From the NCBI RefSeq assembly GCF_021347895.1, contig NC_067130.1:24449817-24513816 (forward strand): a stretch of DNA of 64,000 nt. Reading direction: 5' to 3'. This document shows, in pieces, positions 17,669 through 64,000 of this stretch. How positions within the stretch are numbered: the stretch's first letter is position 1; every line of letters begins with the position of its first letter. The notes under the pieces were generated by a model. The model was not told the DNA's origin. It worked only from the letters and a program-made list of their open reading frames with translations, and made no database searches. Both the position numbers and the translations under genes were made by a program. Origin of the DNA: Acanthochromis polyacanthus. Lineage: Eukaryota > Chordata > Actinopteri > Pomacentridae.

Positions 17669-17968
17669 TTATTTTCTCTTCCTGACTTCAGCCAACAGGT
17701 TTATATTCTCAACTCTGTGTGAACGGAAAACAAAATGCTCATAAAGGCCTCTCGGAACAACGGCAGCGTCTTCATGACACACAGCAAACCATGATGGAGA
17801 ATGAATAAAGAACAACATGGATCAAAGGACACAAATAAATCTGACATTTAGTTAATGATTTCGCTGCAGTAACTAAACGCATAGTAACAAGATACATAAA
17901 ACATTCTTATATATATAATCTATTTATTTATTTATTATTAATATTAATTTATTTTTATTTAGCATATA
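17669..17968. other. Spacer before Tc1 copy C
   Basis: AT-rich, ending in a TTATT-rich run (17920-17960). No gene seen. Confidence 0.5.
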
Positions 17969-19595
17969 CAGTGCCTTGTGAAAGTATTCGGCCCCCTTGA
18001 ACTTTTCAACCTTTCGCCACATTTCAGGCTTCAAACATAAAGATATAAAATTCTAATTTTTTGTCAAGAATCAACAACAAGTGGGACACAATCATGAAGT
18101 GGAACGAAATTTATTGGATATTTTAAACTTTTTTAACAAATAAAAACCTGAAAAGTGGGGCGTGCAATATTATTCGGCCCCTTGCATTAATACTTTGTAG
18201 TGCCACCTTTTGCTGCAATTACAGCTGCAAGTCGCTTGGGGTATGTCTCTATCAGTTTTGCACATGGAGAGACTGAAATGCTTGCCCATTCTTCCTTGCA
18301 AAACAGCTCGAGCTCAGTGAGGTTGGATGGAGAGCGTTTGTGAACAGCAGTCTTCAGCTCTGCCCACAGATTCTCGATTGGATTCAGGTCTGGACTTTGA
18401 CTAGGCCATTCTAACACCTGGATACGTTTATTTGTGAAACATTCCATTGTAGATTTGGCTTTATGTTTTGGATCATTGTCCTGTTGGAAGATAAATCTCC
18501 GTCCCAGTCTCAGGTCTTTTGCAGACTCCAACAGGTTTTCTTCCAGAATGGTCCTGTATTTGGCTCCATTCATCTTCTCATCAATTTTAACCATCTTCCC
18601 TGTCCCTGCTGAAGAAAAGCAGGCCCAAACCATGAGGCTGCCACCACCATGTTTGACAGTGGGGATGGTGTGTTCAGGGTGATGAGCTGTGTTGCTTTTA
18701 CGCCAAACATATCGTTTTGCATTGTGGCCAAAAAGTTGGATTTTGGTTTCATCTGACCAGAGCACCTTCTTCCACATGTTTGGTGTGTCTCCCAGGTGGC
18801 TTGTGGCAAACTTTAAACGAGACTTTTTATGGATATCTTTGAGAAATGGCTTTCTTCTTGCCACTCTTCCATAAAGGCCAGATTTGTGCAGTGTACAACT
18901 GATTGTTGTCCTATGGACAGACTCTCCCACCTCAGCTGTAGATCTCTGCAGTTCATCCAGAGTGATCATGGGCCTCTTGGCTGCATCTCTGATCAGTCTT
19001 CTCCTTGTTTGAGGTGAAAGTTTAGAGGGACGGCCGGGTCTTGGTAGATTTGCAGTGGTCTGATACTCCTTCCATTTCAATATGATTGCTTGCACAGTGC
19101 TCCTTGAGATGTTTAAAGCTTGGGAAATCTTTTTGTATCCAAATCCGGCTTTAAACTTCTCCACAACAGTATCTGGGACCTGCCTGGTGTGTTCCTTGGT
19201 CTTCATGATGGTCTCTGCACTTTAAACAGAACCCTGAGACTATCACAGAGCAGGTGCGTTTATACGGAGACTTGATTACACACAGGTGGATTCTATTTAT
19301 CATCATCAGTCATTTAGGACAACATTGGATCATTCAGAGATCCTCACTGAACTTCTGGAGTGAGTTTGCAGCACTGAAAGTAAAGGGGCCGAATAATATT
19401 GCACACCCCACTTTTCAGTTTTTTATTTGTTAAAAAAGTATAAAATGTCCAATAAATTTCATTCCACTTCACGATTGTGTCCCAATTGTTGTTGATTCTT
19501 GACAAAAAATTGAAATTTTAAATCTTTACGTTTGAAGCCTGAAATGTGGCGAAAGGTTGAAAAGTTCAAGGGGGCCGAATACTTTCACAAGGCAC

Positions 19596-19598
<3 letters not shown>
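17969..19598 (-). mobile_element. Tc1-like transposon copy C, apparently intact
   Basis: A complete 1630-bp element with TA on both sides (17967-17968, 19599-19600). The long inverted repeats (about 215 bp) begin CAGTGCCTTGTGAAAGTATTCG. Each has an inner copy of the motif around 'GCAATATTATTCGGCCCC', the IR/DR layout. The two ends differ at only a small number of positions. The transposase frame inside is uninterrupted. Together this makes it the best candidate in the window for a recently mobile, perhaps autonomous, DNA transposon. Confidence 0.93.
18187..19206 (-). CDS. Tc1 transposase, intact open reading frame (339 aa)
   Basis: Cut-and-paste transposase acting in the nucleus on the element's own inverted repeats. 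Residues about 1-110 carry the paired helix-turn-helix DNA-binding domain (KISQALNISRSTVQAIILKW), with the GRPSKL-type linker joining its two halves. The DDE catalytic core follows: first Asp in VLWSDETKIQLFG, the glycine-rich HGGGSLMVWACF strand, second Asp in [13 protein letters not shown], and Glu in [11 protein letters not shown], 34 residues later (DD34E). The C terminus ends AAKGGTTKY, as is usual for the family, and 339 aa is the normal length. The start is the only Met that gives the standard N terminus. No stop or frameshift is visible. Whether it is transcribed cannot be judged here. Confidence 0.93.
   Translation of the reverse strand: MKTKEHTRQVPDTVVEKFKAGFGYKKISQALNISRSTVQAIILKWKEYQTTANLPRPGRPSKLSPQTRRRLIRDAAKRPMITLDELQRSTAEVGESVHRTTISCTLHKSGLYGRVARRKPFLKDIHKKSRLKFATSHLGDTPNMWKKVLWSDETKIQLFGHNAKRYVWRKSNTAHHPEHTIPTVKHGGGSLMVWACFSSAGTGKMVKIDEKMNGAKYRTILEENLLESAKDLRLGRRFIFQQDNDPKHKAKSTMECFTNKRIQVLEWPSQSPDLNPIENLWAELKTAVHKRSPSNLTELELFCKEEWASISVSPCAKLIETYPKRLAAVIAAKGGTTKY

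Positions 19599-19600
<2 letters not shown>

Positions 19601-19640
<40 letters not shown>
19601..19640. repeat. (TA)n microsatellite at a transposon target site
   Basis: About 40 bases of TA repeat directly beside the right end of the Tc1 copy C element. Tc1 elements insert at TA, so the repeat may be the old target or an expansion of the duplicated site. Confidence 0.85.
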
Positions 19641-19644
<4 letters not shown>

Positions 19645-19845: not shown

Positions 19846-20252
19846 TTTATTTATCTCTCTCTCTACACTGTTATATATTTACAGCAAACCCCTCTCTCCT
19901 CAGAGCTGCTTCCCACTTCTTCCTCAACCCATAGTCTTTGGGAAACCTACATGGAGTAAAGAAAAAAGTAGACAGAGAAGTAAATAAGTATGTACACAAC
20001 AACATATTTAAAAAGAAATCATGCTAATAAATTCAGTACAAAGAGCAGAATCAGCCAATATACTGGAGACCAAAGCTATTTAATTTGATAAGTACAGCCT
20101 TGTTTAGTAACATTTAAATTATTTGAGAGCAGTCCTAAAGAATTGCCTGTAATCCCAATCATAAAATGGGTTTGGAGGAAGAACATAGATGGTAATCTGG
20201 ATATATATGAGTTAGGCTTTATAACTACTATTGGTAGTATTGGTGGTATTAA

Positions 20253-21518
20253 AGGGGAACTTCGTTTTTTTTCAACCTGGGGTCTGTTTTCATATGTCAT
20301 TTCATACATGTGAGTGATGAAGAAGTTAATTTTCGACATAGCTCCAGTATTTAGCCAGGCAGGCAGCTTAGCAGCTCAGCTAGCGAAAAGTATGGGGCAA
20401 CTTGCCCCCCCGCATCAACGTCTGCCCTAACGTGCTTTTTCCCCCACACTGACCGGCTCGGATAGTCTCAATGAGTGTCCCACAACATACTAGAGATGAG
20501 AAAACCTCCACGTTAGATGGCACACAAAACACAAAACCGGTGTTTTGGCGCGAGCTATCACACGATTTCGGAACGAGATTTGCTTTCTAGCGTCCTTAGA
20601 TTTAGATACAGACTACAACAAAGAGCGATCGCCAAGTAATGTGGAGGTTTTCGTTCACTTCTCATCTCTCGCTGCTCTGCTCCTCAGCAATGTCATAATT
20701 TACCTTTATCTGGACTCTGTGTTCAGACTGATGAGCACCTGGTGTCTCCTCAGATGGGCTGTGTGCCTCAACACTTTAAAATCTCAACCATGAAAAACTG
20801 CACACCCTGGCTCCAGTGTTCACAGATAAATTCTGAAGTACGCAAGTTGAAGATGATCGGCCAGGGAGCTGTTAAGAAGGTAAATGGATTTTACATTGTA
20901 TGGCAGTCTAATTTATTGTCTGTGGATGAGCTAGCACAAACAGGACATCAACAGAAAGCGTTAAATCTTATCTGCCCGTTTGAGTGAGGATTTACCAGTT
21001 CAATCAAATCAAGCACAAAATGCTACACATTCTATTTTATCTTTGGACTTGTGCTAGGTAATGCAAAAAGATAAAAAAAAAGATTAACTTCAGGATTTTT
21101 ACAGAATTACATATAGCACTATGCTGACAGCATCAAACGGGTGAAAATGAACTGTGAAGACACAGGCTGTGTCCGAAATGGCATACTAACATACTACATA
21201 CTACATACTCAATGAGTATATACTGTATACTACGTACTATAAGGTTTTCGTTCACTTCTCATCTCTAGTATGTTGTGGGACACTCATTGAGACTATCCGA
21301 GCCGGTCAGTGTGGGGAAAAAAAGCACGTTAGGGTGGACTTTGACGGGGGGGGGCAAGTTGCCCCATACTCTTCGCTAGCTGAGCTGCTAGCTGAGCTGC
21401 TAAGCTCACTGCCTGGCTAAATACTGGAGCTATGTCGAAAATTCGTTTCTCCATCACTCACATCTATAAAATGACATATGAAAACAGACATCAGGTTGAA
21501 AAAAAACAAAGTTCCCCT
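20253..21518. mobile_element. Kolobok/T2-like MITE carrying a captured pomk exon
   Basis: Long inverted repeats of roughly 265 bp (about 20253-20515 and 21265-21518) flank the segment, each beginning AGGGGAAC at the outer end. TTAA sits on both sides (20249-20252 and 21519-21522), and the ends read TTAAAGGGG. From general knowledge, TTAAAGGRR is the terminal motif of T2-family MITEs of the Kolobok superfamily. Inside the left half are about 130 bp of element-specific sequence (20516-20645). Then comes an inserted 575-bp copy of the pomk exon and intron start (20669-21243). A 24-bp element sequence stands on both sides of the insert (20646-20669 and 21243-21266). No transposase is encoded. The element sits in an imperfect ACT/AGT trinucleotide tract. 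Confidence 0.85.
20669..21243 (+). pseudogene. pomk: Transduplicated pomk exon fragment
   Basis: The block is almost identical to 25646-26222, which holds most of pomk coding exon 1, its splice donor and the first part of the intron. In 575 bases I see one substitution (20906 region, CAGTCTAA versus CAGCCTAA) and two single-base deletions. One deletion is in the coding part (GTGTTCAGAC versus GTGTATCAGAC near 20722), which shifts the frame; the other is in an A run in the intron. The copy lacks the exon start, the initiation codon and the splice acceptor, but retains the donor AAG|GTAAAT. It is a non-functional fragment, though it could act as a decoy or alternative 5' exon since it lies upstream of the true exon on the same strand. 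Confidence 0.93.
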
Positions 21519-21522
21519 TTAA

Positions 21523-21972: not shown

Positions 21973-22126
21973 CTTCGTAATTGTCAATAAAACTGGACAG
22001 GTACATCTTGTACCCCTTTTCCCGTTTACTCCGGGGGGTAGAGCACTCCTTTCGGATGAGTCTGTGGACATCTGATATGGTAAGCTTGGGCAGGTCTTGG
22101 AGGCACCGTGTGAAAAACATCGCCAT
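21973..22126 (-). CDS. Putative first coding exon of an unidentified gene
   Basis: The minus-strand ATG at 22126 sits in a good Kozak context (AAGATGGCG). It opens MAMFFTRCLQDLPKLTISDV and continues HRLIRKECSTPRSKREKGYK and MYLSSFIDNYEG. The exon ends at the donor GAAG|GTACGTT. Upstream on the same strand there are two ETS-type sites (ACTTCCG, CTTCCG) between 22160 and 22195 and no TATA box. I do not recognise the family with certainty; short N-terminal modules of this kind with a 'GYK' motif occur in multi-copy, transposon-associated fish proteins. The intron would run toward lower coordinates, and I could not find the next exon. Confidence 0.45.
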
Positions 22127-25373: not shown

Positions 25374-25587
25374 TCGTCCTCCAATAGTTACACATTGGAA
25401 CTTGACTTATCAAAGAGCAAGCATCACCTTGCTTTTTACCTGGAGAGTGCTCCTGGACCCCTTGACAAAATTATTGGGTGATTTTTACCAAGAACATTAT
25501 AGTAGGTACAATTGACTACACTCAAAGCACTGACCACACCCAATGGTCCTCTAACATATTTATTTTTCATTTTAGATGCTGAGCACC

Positions 25588-28377
<2,790 letters not shown>

Positions 28378-30740: not shown

Positions 30741-30885
30741 CATATACAGTCATGGAAATTTTTTTTTAGACCACTCTTGTTTTCTTCAATTTCTTGTTCA
30801 CTTAAATGCCTGGTATCATTAAAGATATATTATCTTAAGAATACAATGAACACCACAAAAAATGCAGCTGATTACATAATACTTC

Positions 30886-33657
30886 ATGTCCTTTTTCCAA
30901 AGTATGTTAATTAACGACCTGATTTTAGATAACAAGTTAGACAGCATCTTTTTAACAGAGACATGGCTTGGCACTGACGCATCAGTTGTTCTCACCGAGG
31001 CTTGCCCACCAAATTTTAATTTTTTATTTTCGACCAGGGGTGGTAAAAGAGGGGGTGGAACTGCCTCTATCACGAGAAACACACTGAACTCAAATGAAGT
31101 CTCCTTTAACAGTTATATATCGTTTGAGCATCATGTCTTTGTTTTTAGCAGTCCTCCTATTCTTTGCATCACGGTTTACAGACCACCCCACCATCATTTT
31201 ACCTCTTTTATCAGTGAATTTTCTGAACTATTGTTAATCATACACACCAACTATAACAGAATTTTAATATCTGGTGATTTTAATCTACATGTTGATAATA
31301 GCTCTGACTCAATGTCCAATGAATTTTTAAATCTTTTAACTTGTATGGATTTTAAACAGCACGTCACACAGCCGACTCACAATAGAGGACACACCCTGGA
31401 CCTGGTCATAACCTATGGCCTGTCCACTGGTGTGTCCTCTGTCGTAGACCTGGCTGTGTCTGACCACTACTGTGTGTATTTTAACATCATCAGTTTTAAC
31501 CACCAGGTGGCCCCGGTGGGAACGGTGAGGAAACGCTATGTTACTTCTGAAGTGGCTGCAAATTTTATGGAGATTTTAAAGAGCACTCCTGCCGAAATTT
31601 TACCTGCATCTTGTGATTTTATTGTTGACAATTTTTACAGCAAACTGAAAACAACACTGGACTCAGTTGCTCCACTTTTAACCAAAACCATAAAAACAAA
31701 ACCTACACCACCGTGGAGAAATAATGACGAAATCAAAAAGCTCAAAAGAAATTGCAGGAGTGCAGAGAGGAGGTGGAGAAAAAACAAACTGACAATTCAC
31801 TATGAAATATTACGTGAACAACTGAAAATCTACAATAACTCAGTCAAATTGGCACGAATCTCTCATTTCTCAAGACTCATCACAGACCATAAAAATAACA
31901 CCAAATTCCTGTTCTCCACCATCGATCTTTTAACAAATAGTAATTTTAAAAAATCTTACAAACCCCCATCAGATGACCTCTGTGAGGACTTTGCAGACCA
32001 CTTCAGAAGTAAAATCGATAATATCAGATCCAGTCTTTTACCCCAACAGAATTCATTTTTTAACATGCCTGTACCACCACTTTTACCTGAGGAAACACTG
32101 GAGAGTTTTGCCCTGGTGGACGCTAGGACACTTGGTCGAGTTTTCTCCCAAGTACACCCAACAACCTGCCTTTTAGACCCAATTCCCACATCACTTTTAA
32201 AAAAATTTTATGGCTTTTTTGAGGAACAGATTTTAAATATTGTAAATTGCTCTCTTCAGACGGGTGTCTTCCCCGCCGCCTTTAAAACATCAGTGGTGAA
32301 GCCCCTTCTGAAGAAGAGTAATTTAGACCCCAACATTTTTAATAACTACAGACCTGTGTCCAACTTACCATTTTTAAGTAAAATTTTAGAAAAGCTGGTT
32401 TTTAATCAAGTAAATGATTTTTTAAATAGTATCAATATTTTAGAGAAATACCAATCTGGTTTTAGGATGAACCACAGTACAGAGACAGCCCTTTTAAAGA
32501 TTTTAAATGACATTAGGTATAACACAGATTCACAAAAACTTACAGTCTTGGTACTACTGGATCTAAGTGCTGCCTTTGACACAGTAGATCACCACATTTT
32601 ATTAAACAGACTGAGAAACCTTGTCGGCCTCTCTGGTACTGTTTTTAACTGGTTCAGCTCCTATCTCACAGATCGATATTTCCGTGTAAGTTTGGACACA
32701 TGTTCCTCCAGAACTCATAAAATAAATTGTGGGGTGCCCCAAGGGTCAATTTTAGGTCCAATTCTTTTTAATCTATATATGCTTCCCCTTGGGGACGTCA
32801 TCAGGAGACACGGCATCAGCTTCCACAGTTATGCAGATGATACACAGTTGTACATTGCCGTGTCTCCTGAAGACACAGGGCCAATTGATGCTCTTTTTAG
32901 CTGTATTTTAGATATTAAGTCATGGATGGCAGAGAATTTCCTACAGCTCAACCAGGACAAAACAGAGGTCTTAGTCATTGGTCCTGAAGGCAAGAGAGAG
33001 AAACTTTTACCAAAACTACAAGATTTTAAACCAACACAATGTGTAAAGAACCTGGGCGTCATTTTTGACTCTGAGCTGAATTTTATTCCACATATTAAAA
33101 ATGTAACAAAAATAGGTTTTTATCATCTTAAGAATATAGCCAGAGTCCGCCCATTTCTCTCTCAGGCCAGCATGGAGGTGCTAATGCATGCTTTTATCTC
33201 TTCTCGTTTAGACTATTGTAATGCCCTGCTCTCTGGTCTTCCCAAAAAGACCATCTCTAGTTTGCAGTTACTACAGAACTCAGCCGCACGTGTGCTGACG
33301 AAGACCAGAGGGCGGGCTCACATTACACCGATTTTAAAATCGCTGCATTGGCTCCCCGTGTGCTTCAGGATCGATTTTAAGGTTCTTTTATTAGTTTTTA
33401 AATGTCTTAATGGTCTTGGGCCCTCTTATTTATCTGACCTGCTTTTATCATATCAACCCTCGCGGGTCCTGAGGTCCTCCGGCACTGGACTTTTAATTAT
33501 TCCAAGAGTAAATACAAAAACCCACAGGGAGGCTGCTTTCAGCCATTATGGCCCTCGAATATGGAATAGCCTGCCGGAGAGCATCAGGACTGCAGAGACT
33601 GTTGATGTTTTTAAAAGGAGGCTCAAGACTCATCTTTTTGGTTTGGCTTTTAACTGA
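30886..33657 (+). CDS. L2 LINE endonuclease-reverse transcriptase, open but N-truncated
   Basis: 923 codons without a stop. The N-terminal third is an AP-type endonuclease: FLTETW near residue 25, VYRPPHHHF, SGDFNLHVD, and the late SDHYCVYFNI block with catalytic Asp and His. The middle is the reverse transcriptase: NNYRPVSNLPFLSKILEKLV, QSGFRMNHSTETALL, LDLSAAFDTVDH, GVPQGSILGPILFNLYM, and the catalytic YADDTQLY. The C terminus keeps LGVIFDSELNF, SRLDYCNALLSG, LQNSAARVLT and LHWLPVCFRIDFK. The annotated first Met may come from host or Tc1 sequence, since the true N terminus is lost. Because the frame is still open, the insertion should be young, but missing the first endonuclease strand it is unlikely to be autonomous. 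Confidence 0.9.
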   Translation: MSFFQSMLINDLILDNKLDSIFLTETWLGTDASVVLTEACPPNFNFLFSTRGGKRGGGTASITRNTLNSNEVSFNSYISFEHHVFVFSSPPILCITVYRPPHHHFTSFISEFSELLLIIHTNYNRILISGDFNLHVDNSSDSMSNEFLNLLTCMDFKQHVTQPTHNRGHTLDLVITYGLSTGVSSVVDLAVSDHYCVYFNIISFNHQVAPVGTVRKRYVTSEVAANFMEILKSTPAEILPASCDFIVDNFYSKLKTTLDSVAPLLTKTIKTKPTPPWRNNDEIKKLKRNCRSAERRWRKNKLTIHYEILREQLKIYNNSVKLARISHFSRLITDHKNNTKFLFSTIDLLTNSNFKKSYKPPSDDLCEDFADHFRSKIDNIRSSLLPQQNSFFNMPVPPLLPEETLESFALVDARTLGRVFSQVHPTTCLLDPIPTSLLKKFYGFFEEQILNIVNCSLQTGVFPAAFKTSVVKPLLKKSNLDPNIFNNYRPVSNLPFLSKILEKLVFNQVNDFLNSINILEKYQSGFRMNHSTETALLKILNDIRYNTDSQKLTVLVLLDLSAAFDTVDHHILLNRLRNLVGLSGTVFNWFSSYLTDRYFRVSLDTCSSRTHKINCGVPQGSILGPILFNLYMLPLGDVIRRHGISFHSYADDTQLYIAVSPEDTGPIDALFSCILDIKSWMAENFLQLNQDKTEVLVIGPEGKREKLLPKLQDFKPTQCVKNLGVIFDSELNFIPHIKNVTKIGFYHLKNIARVRPFLSQASMEVLMHAFISSRLDYCNALLSGLPKKTISSLQLLQNSAARVLTKTRGRAHITPILKSLHWLPVCFRIDFKVLLLVFKCLNGLGPSYLSDLLLSYQPSRVLRSSGTGLLIIPRVNTKTHREAAFSHYGPRIWNSLPESIRTAETVDVFKRRLKTHLFGLAFN

Positions 33658-61246: not shown

Positions 61247-64000
61247 CTAAACACAAGCAGCACAAATAAATGGATCATCATCCGAAGGTCGATTGACACA
61301 GGCGTGGTGGTACCACCGGGGACAGCTATCACAGCCAATCTGAAATATAAAATATATTACTGTATTTACATTATTATAAGAAATGGACTCTGATTATACT
61401 TTGAATATCATTAACTTAAACTAAGACCACTACTATTATGATAACCACTCGCTTATATTAGATAATTTGACAGTTTTACCCAATATGGCTCGTCACGATC
61501 ATCACAGTCCTCCTCCCCACAAAAGTGACAGCGCTGACTCAGGTTCTCTATTTAAAACATTTTTAAAAAATCTTTGAAGGTGTATTTATCTATCTTTTTC
61601 AAGAGATTAGCTATGATTTTATTCTGTGTGAGCCTTTGAAATGGCTCACTTTACATTACAACAAAATTCATATTCATAGGATTTTCAATAACAACCATGA
61701 ACCTACCAGTCCTTAGTAGCAGTGTTTTTGCGATCTGAAAACGATGCCTTTCCAGGTCCTCAGCTGACGTTTTGAATTTCATTTCATTTTCGCCCTTAAT
61801 AATGCTCTCAGCAAACTGAAAATAGAAATTAACAAATTATTTTTAAAAAGTAATGTATTTTTCATTGTTTATAGATAGCATAAAAGATCTCGTAGTACAG
61901 AGGTTTCACATAGGCATAAATATAGGTTTATTTTAACAGTTGAAATCATCATAATTCATGTTAAGATGCTTTCTCAGAAACACATCATATTAATGACTGA
62001 TCTAGGAGCATTATCCGTGAACTAATGTAACACTTACCATGAGGGCGAAGACCCCACATGATGTACAATCCTTCTGGATTGGGTGGGGGAGAGTGCTAAT
62101 GGCCACTCTGGATATATTGCATCCCTTGTCTCGTAGGAATGCTCTAAATATTGAAAAAACAAGCAAACAAAAAAAAAAACAACATTTAGCATGTTTTAAA
62201 TTCAATTTGGAATATGTGCTATGCAAAATTCTAAGATGTTCTGGGAAAATGTAGCATTATTTACCTTGTTGCTGCCTGGCATTTCTTCATTTGGGCGAGG
62301 GATTCCCCAAATGGATCGAAGAAGAGAGCCCTCTTCTCAGAGGGGAAGATGACCTATATGGAAATACAGACAATGTATGTACATTGTAAAGATACACAAT
62401 GCAGATTAATTTTTCTTTACCTTTAAGAGCATAGATGAGTCCACAATGAAGAGAAATTACAAAGAGGATAAAAACCTCAGTTTGCACAGCTTTATTCTAG
62501 AGTAGCACATACAACTCCAAGATTATACCAACTTTCATGGGTTAGATTAAGAACTATAAGAACTATTTACAAATTATTATATACACAGTATACAGTACAA
62601 TAAATCTAGTAAAATTATAAACTCACCATCAGCAACCAATGATGACTTTCATTGATAATTCCGAGAAGCATCTTGTATGCCATCGGATCCAACTAAAACA
62701 TGAAAGGAGAAGAAAGCATTTGTGTTAGCTTCAGATAAAATAAAATAATAGAAAAAACATACTAAACGTTGTCTTTAACAATCATTCAGTGCATTAAATT
62801 GAAGTGTAAACCTTCAGCTTTGAACGATTTTGCTTCCAGATGTCTGTCATAGCAAAGGTGTCGATGAGTCTGGCCTTTTTTTTGGACTGCTGATTGAAGT
62901 CCTGCACAAGGACTGTGAGGTAGCCATTAATAACCTGAAAAAAATGAGGTATTCTCAGATGCTGAAAATCATATAAATACAAAATATGATTGCAGAAGGT
63001 ACATTCTGTCCATTATTCACCTGATCAGACAAATAATTATAGATCAGTTCATAGTCAGATATCAATAAATAATTATAGAGGTATTACCTCACTTTCTAAT
63101 TCCTTATTTGGAGCTGTCCTTTCAATATCTGAAAAAAAATAGCTTGTATGGCCCTATTTTTGCCATGAGCACAAAAGGGCTCTTTCCTGCCCATGCATCC
63201 CGGATGCCTGTAAAACAAATAGTATTGAAGTGTCAGTTAAACAGCATCTTTCTGGGTAATACAATTAGTCCATGATTTTCAACCTAACATTTTAAGAAAT
63301 TTTTTCATACACTTTTCTATCATGTCTGCTGCTACTGGAGCTGCTGGTGAAATGGCAGCGAGGTCTTGAACTGCAGGGGTGGCAGAGGGGACTGGAACTG
63401 AGGCAGGTGTGGCAGAAGCATTGGCCGATGCTGGAGCAGGTGTGGCAGAAGCAGGGGCCGATGCTGGGGCAGGTGTGGCAGAAGCAGGGGCAGATGCTGG
63501 AGCAGGTGTGGCAGAAGCAGGGGCCGATGCTGGAGCAGGTGTGGCAGGAGCAGGGGCCGATGCTGGAGCAGGTGTGGCAGGAGCAGGGGCCGATGCTGGG
63601 GCAGGTGTGGCAGGAGCAGGGGCCGATGCTGGGGCAGGTGTGGCAGGAGCAGGGGCCGATGCTGGGGCAGGTGTGGCAGGAGCAGGGGCCGATGCTGGGG
63701 CAGGTGTGGCAGGAGCAGGGGCCGATGCTGGGGCAGGTGTGGCAGGAGCAGGGGCCGATGCTGGGGCAGGTGTGGCAGGAGCAGGGGCCGATGCTGGGGC
63801 AGGTGTGGCAGGAGCAGGGGCCGATGCTGGGGCAGGTGTGGCAGGAGCAGGGGCCGATGCTGGGGCAGGTGTGGCAGGAGCAGGGGCCGATGCTGGGGCA
63901 GGTGTGGCAGGAGCAGGGGCCGATGCTGGGGCAGGTGTGGCAGGAGCAGGGGCCGATGCTGGGGCAGGTGTGGCAGGAGCAGGGGCCGATGCTGGGGCAG
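61247..64000 (-). CDS. Ulp1/SENP-type protease with PHD finger, 5' end outside the window
   Basis: Minus-strand exons: >64000-63311, 63207-63088, 62934-62812, 62692-62627, 62353-62265, 62143-62038, 61815-61707, 61547-61480, 61339-61247; all GT..AG in matching phase. The first visible exon is an 11-residue Pro/Ala repeat. The C48 protease region follows: KIGPYKLF, EVINGYLTVLVQDFN, then catalytic His in ESHHWLLM, Asp in LFFDPFGESLAQM, and Gln and Cys in IQKDCTSCGVFALM, the standard order for SUMO-type proteases. The C terminus is a complete PHD finger (CHFCGEEDC...WIGCDSCPRWYHHACV...FICAACV) ending at the stop. In exon 2 the frame slips at an 8-T run (63132-63139); seven would keep it open. Protease-PHD proteins of this kind are, to my knowledge, multi-copy and transposon-associated in fish, so this may be a mobile-element gene rather than a host SENP. 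Confidence 0.8.
63397..64000 (-). repeat. 33-bp coding minisatellite (Pro/Ala repeat)
   Basis: At least 18 units of 33 bp run to the window edge. On the coding (minus) strand each gives APASAPAPATP. The units nearest 63397-63500 carry a few substitutions (GCAGAAGCA instead of GCAGGAGCA), while those to the right are nearly identical, which indicates recent homogenisation. The length is a multiple of 3, so copy-number changes keep the frame. Confidence 0.95.

Follow-up and report, generated by a model that had tools for sequence, protein, structure and literature searches.

Repair-mediated capture of nearby DNA into vertebrate TEs is already known, zebrafish included. In the available text of Pace, Sen, Batzer and Feschotte (Pace et al. 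2009, PMC2671141), repair-mediated duplications are insertions that interrupt TE copies. The donor lies within 5 kb for 824 of 1,136 insertions into human TEs, proximal insertions are up to 619 bp long, partial exons and introns appear among the donors (four such donors in human), and 80 cases come from zebrafish. At the junctions, microhomology spans 2-9 nt and target duplications of 4-21 nt are seen in some cases, the two occurring together in 3/39; poly(A) was present in 0/39 proximal cases examined. Class 2 templated sequence insertion polymorphisms, as portrayed in the accessible part of PMC5110952, are without target duplications and have distant templates. Uptake of gene fragments by an animal transposon has been described for Turmoil-1 (PMC2572040, available in part).

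Here we describe a piece of the gene pomk lying inside a TTAA-type foldback MITE of Acanthochromis polyacanthus, within a window (the whole stretch of DNA analysed) of 64,000 nucleotides. Very probably this piece, of about 573 bp, was copied in place during the repair of a staggered break in what was likely a resident MITE. As in the insertions collected by Pace et al., so far as the available text defines them, a block of at least 50 bp interrupts a TE copy, the donor lies on the same chromosome at a distance of more than 50 bp and less than 5 kb, the block is shorter than 619 bp and without poly(A), and its junctions combine microhomology with a short target duplication. The right-hand microhomology, 2 bp, is in the range given there; the left-hand one, a single base, falls below 2-9 nt. 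At 22-25 bp, the duplication is slightly longer than 4-21 nt. A templated patch, microhomology and the absence of poly(A) are also shared with class 2 insertions as the accessible part of PMC5110952 presents them, from which this locus differs in having a target duplication and a close donor. The lack of a poly(A) tract at the 3′ junction of the block sets it apart from LINE-mediated class 1 templated insertions. Similar to Turmoil-1 and Pack-TYPE elements (PMC8903248), in the portions of those papers that are available, a host coding piece lies between the inverted ends of a DNA transposon. Unlike those elements, the MITE has one filled copy and gives no sign that it moved after being filled, which is the simplest reading rather than a proof. 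The open-licence literature, as partly available, yielded no fish case of a Kolobok-type MITE containing a host exon.

A pomk block inside a foldback MITE

The element and its flanking target duplications are placed as follows, from the sequence itself and, for the MITE, also from inverted-repeat comparison and family copies.

20253-21518 (+): foldback MITE of TTAA type, holding the pomk block
20249-20252 (no strand): left TTAA target duplication of the MITE
21519-21522 (no strand): right TTAA target duplication of the MITE

The inverted ends read TTAAAGGGGAACTTCG/T, and the arms form a long inverted repeat in three pieces that are 88, 90 and 99% complementary. When the block is removed, the single-stranded MITE folds into an almost full-length hairpin of -289.6 kcal/mol (DNA parameters, G-T pairs excluded). 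A first-pass annotation of the window had reported inverted ends with TTAA on both sides at 20253-21518, and both are seen in the sequence.

The block, its donor and the surrounding parts of pomk have these coordinates:

20669-21243 (+): pomk block, made of part of exon 1, its splice donor, the start of intron 1 and about 82 bp of a repeat
25646-26222 (+): donor of the block (alignment and self-comparison)
25576-25857 (+): pomk first coding exon, 282 bp (open frames and translation)
27607-28377 (+): pomk second coding exon, to the stop (open frames, PDB match and translation)
26142-26894 (no strand): repeat with inverted ends in pomk intron 1, outer limits approximate

Exon 2 of pomk matches PDB ‘Protein O-mannose kinase’ chains (best E 5.4e-107), and exons 1 and 2, when joined, translate as a single open frame to the stop. 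The block (575 nt) and its donor (577 nt) align over 577 columns with 99.5% identity, a match that is not due to chance, and they differ by one substitution and two 1-nt deletions, both deletions being in the copy. The alignment agrees with the earlier description of a 575-bp copy differing from 25646-26222 at three positions. When the window was compared with itself by megablast (word 20, low-complexity filter on), the match of block and donor was the longest and most identical; next came a tandem array (63.4-64 kb) and an inverted pair of 222 bp (1.4 and 2.8-3.1 kb). The array, at 63398-64000, repeats about every 33 bp, with as much as 98% identity between copies, and runs to the end of the window.

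Copy and donor lie on the same chromosome and the same strand, separated by a gap of 4,402 bp (4,977-4,979 bp from start to start), with the copy upstream of pomk, and the coordinates bear out what the first-pass annotation had said of their order and orientation. The splice donor that it described as kept in the copy is the GT at 20880-20881. Its statement that exon 1 had been copied holds for the coding part, the splice donor and the start of the intron, and has to be narrowed in two respects. First, the block carries just 212 of the 282 bp of pomk coding exon 1, with one 1-nt deletion in this coding part, and the beginning of the exon, with the start codon and the 3′ splice site, is absent. 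Second, the last ~82 bp of the block are a different dispersed repeat, resident in pomk intron 1. The corresponding 5′ ~82 bp of the intron 1 repeat occur at many genomic places; because they were copied with the block, the repeat predates the duplication. Because the block contains intron and repeat sequence, its template was DNA or unspliced RNA.

A family of empty copies

The 33-nt end of the MITE has 1,963 matches in the genome at up to 3 mismatches (973 forward, 990 reverse), and a reversed-pattern control for the same end gave 0 forward and 0 reverse. Empty copies elsewhere, for which the first-pass annotation had proposed a search, do exist, and 38 of them were fetched. In the whole-element search of the 957-Mb assembly, 40 candidates were scored, namely the MITE copy, pomk and these 38 others. 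Before about query base 472-497 the block matches pomk alone, and this pomk-specific part was found in two places of the assembly, the copy and pomk, with no match in the 38 other copies. Other filled copies were also looked for, and the MITE described here was the only one found among the 40 candidates.

TTAA is present at both fixed ends in 29 of the 38 other copies; in the remaining 9, one end is altered, interrupted or truncated. The bases outside the TTAA vary between family copies. On C1, exact family ends mark 30 loci. In 22 of them, which represent 18 distinct elements, a second end is present, the nearest lying 328 to 766 bp away. The other 8 have no second end within about 1.5 kb, and two of these are the ends of a single longer element, L086, discussed below. 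The interiors of the C1 loci were compared with the family consensus only.

Some long family members were considered as parallel captures and rejected. L049 (1,026 bp; G000:C15:818241-819858) is a family member in which a AGCTGAGCTGCTA-like short repeat has undergone a long expansion in the right arm. L017/L087 (1.24 kb; L087 at G000:C4:7964522-7965962) is interrupted by what is apparently another, nested repeat with its own inverted ends. Neither of the two looks like the capture of a host gene.

T2-MITE and Kolobok elements are characterized, in the available part of PMC6004289, by a TTAA target, an AGGRR end and a THAP domain. The MITE studied here resembles them in its TTAA target duplication, in a terminus, AGGGG, that fits AGGRR, and in having a longer relative that shares its ends and contains a THAP frame; it also begins with AGGGGAACT, as does one Xenopus Kolobok end tabulated in that paper. 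The longer relative, L086 (G000:C1:62565337-62571083), is a 5.5-kb element, both ends of which are common to the MITE. Its frame matches Pfam THAP (E 1.5e-11), and THAP alone matched when its six frames were compared with Pfam, a DDE catalytic motif not being found. L086 is a candidate for a relative of the element that formerly supplied the family with transposase. Further relatives of the THAP frame are present at many places, mostly interrupted by stops and some of them near family ends, as with the frame at C3:3037861 beside the family end at C3:3037742. The MITE family likely belongs to Kolobok, an assignment based on an incomplete set of features.

Insertion signature around the block

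On each side of the block stands one copy of a short MITE sequence:

20645-20669 (+): 25-nt MITE sequence, first copy of the duplication
21242-21266 (+): 25-nt MITE sequence, second copy of the duplication

This 25-mer, AGGTTTTCGTTCACTTCTCATCTCT, occurs twice in the MITE, directly flanking the block. A scan of the 38 other family copies (same strand, up to 4 mismatches) finds it exactly once in 35 of them, with AGTATG or a one-base variant of it coming next, and finds it absent from L031, L044 and L048. The block separates positions that adjoin each other in 35/38 other copies, a comparison in which paralogous family copies stand for the empty state of the MITE. On both sides of the block, the 25-mer and the sequence that follows it are intact. 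MITE and pomk share 1 base at the left junction (T at 20669) and 2 at the right junction (AG at 21242-21243), and because these end bases can be assigned to either, the length of the duplication is 22-25 bp. Neither poly(A) nor filler was found at the block junctions, the 3′ junction reading ACTATAAG/GTTTTCG.

In the folded MITE, the duplicated 25-mer spans the largest bulge of the hairpin, opposite a 9-nt gap in the left arm. The nine left-arm positions are filled in 32 of 35 aligned other copies, and in L024, L041 and L054 the same nine columns are altered in other ways.

Relative age of the MITE and the block

Several comparisons bear on the order of events. First, 36/669 sites of the MITE part depart from the family consensus, against 1/573 for the block compared with pomk (Fisher p 2.7e-9), and the same contrast outside CpG/TG/CA is 15/426 against 1/573 (Fisher p 2.4e-5), the consensus differences including inherited subfamily differences. 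Second, when only private bases are counted, that is, those present in no other aligned copy, the figures are 11/665 for the MITE and 1/572 for the block (p 0.008). Outside CpG-type sites, 5 private bases are left and the difference is not significant (p 0.09), so that the private-site count gives a weaker age contrast than the consensus count.

Third, 36 copies were aligned; being chosen by similarity to the MITE copy, they are a suitable set for seeking siblings, though they do not survey the family as a whole. The two most similar differ by 3.9%, and the nearest relative of the MITE copy is 6.3% away. The sample thus shows no transposition that would be as young as the block. Since cut-and-paste movement need not leave a sibling, the lack of one only argues against later transposition.

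A single substitution in 573 bp puts the age of the block at about 0.09-0.29 million years, with 95% limits of about 2 thousand to 1.6 million years, if each site changes at 1e-8 to 3e-9 per year. The first reading had called the copy recent, and at 1/573 substitution against pomk the block does look so; an older block could also seem young through gene conversion with pomk.

Origin of the block

In the staggered-break repair that we favour, offset nicks some 22-25 nt apart in the right arm of the MITE would have produced overlapping ends. One of these would have primed synthesis on pomk, through synthesis-dependent strand annealing or microhomology-mediated template switching. After about 573 bp had been copied, the new strand would have been displaced and joined at AG to the other, filled-in end. 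With less assurance, the arm hairpin may have favoured breakage at the place of insertion: hairpin-forming inverted repeats are reported to cause breaks (PMC3855049, in its available part), and a hairpin cut at the 25-mer bulge is a suggestive idea only. The product is a partial duplicate of pomk, from which we infer the break and its cause.

One rival is an abortive gap repair, in which excision of the MITE began and the gap was refilled from a sister copy, synthesis switching template to pomk and then returning. It too would give an in-place insertion with microhomology and a repeated stretch, and the block does sit within the element. It is hard to separate from staggered-break repair on sequence alone. 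However, it requires transposase activity, and the aligned family sample shows no recent movement; further, both element ends and their TTAA sites are intact. We judge it unlikely.

The first-pass annotation had proposed a transduplication, with the MITE taking up the pomk piece and the filled MITE then transposing to 20.25 kb. Since the block lies wholly between the inverted ends and both TTAA are intact, the filled unit would be mobile in principle, and a cut-and-paste jump can leave no sibling copy. Several observations speak against such a capture and re-insertion. The heaviest is the distance to the donor, just 4.4 kb away on the same strand, since an independent re-insertion would rarely land so close. 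Further, there is one filled copy only, and the block has its own 22-25 bp duplication and microhomologous junctions within a single arm. The MITE is also far more diverged from its family than the block is from pomk, and the aligned sample holds neither a close relative nor a recent pair (6.3% for the nearest relative, 3.9% for the closest pair). Transduplication is, in our estimation, decidedly improbable.

Retrotransposition, in which a LINE enzyme would have put an unspliced pomk transcript into a nick, could account for the duplication of 22-25 bp round the block and for the intron sequence, which unspliced RNA would contain. It is nevertheless hardly credible here, as the 3′ junction is without poly(A) and the duplication starts at TGTGG/AGGTTTTC rather than at a TTTT/A site on either strand (criteria from the available part of PMC5110952). 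That the block is a false join of the assembly is equally hard to credit, given three differences from the donor, a duplicated MITE stretch at the junctions and MITE sequence on both flanks, none of them expected of a collapsed or misjoined repeat.

Consequences for pomk and its neighbourhood

Staggered-break repair would have left a copied splice donor upstream of pomk, and two predicted features bear on its effect:

20688-20879 (+): predicted 192-bp exon-like unit, from a pyrimidine-rich CAG to the copied donor
21973-22126 (-): predicted first coding exon of a gene divergent from pomk, ending at a GT donor

The CAG at 20685-20687 is preceded by sequence with a pyrimidine content of 0.82. The acceptor of pomk exon 2 has the same value, which 1.5% of the 2,056 + strand YAG sites attain. 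Within pomk, the same AG already has a pyrimidine content of 0.76, so the MITE contributes little within that stretch. The predicted 192-bp exon has one open frame and would join pomk exon 2 in phase. A joint reading would have the hairpin cut at the bulge opposite the copy-specific 9-nt deletion, the cut patched from pomk and the new 192-bp exon serving as an alternative POMK start that lacks the membrane anchor. The MITE would then be its own fragile site and an exon trap, its pyrimidine-rich arm fused to pomk. We consider this combination very improbable, in what it says of the cut, the patch and the new exon as in the picture of a fragile site and trap.

No Pfam or PDB match was found for the first 52 residues of the divergent minus-strand gene, and the CpG ratio near 21973-22126, 0.57-0.62, is moderately raised and is equalled elsewhere in the window. 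With the predicted minus-strand exon standing between the copy and its donor gene, transcription of pomk likely begins downstream of the copy, at a predicted position between about 22.1 and 25.5 kb, and the copy is thus likely upstream of the pomk promoter. The effect on pomk splicing put forward in the first-pass annotation is possible but conjectural.

Two long uninterrupted frames are also present in the window. One of 344 codons at 18187-19221 (-) lies between inverted repeats at 17927-18183 and 19383-19643 and resembles a Tc1-type transposase. The other, of 925 codons at 30880-33657 (+), resembles a LINE endonuclease and reverse transcriptase.

As read here, the locus would be a young, clean single event, a vertebrate ‘exon inside a transposon’ for which no transposition is needed and repair alone is enough. 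It also calls for caution in annotation: when a MITE holds part of pomk together with a good splice donor, gene capture by a transposon may be wrongly assumed. Should the block turn out to be polymorphic within the species, it would serve as a marker of templated repair in the germline.
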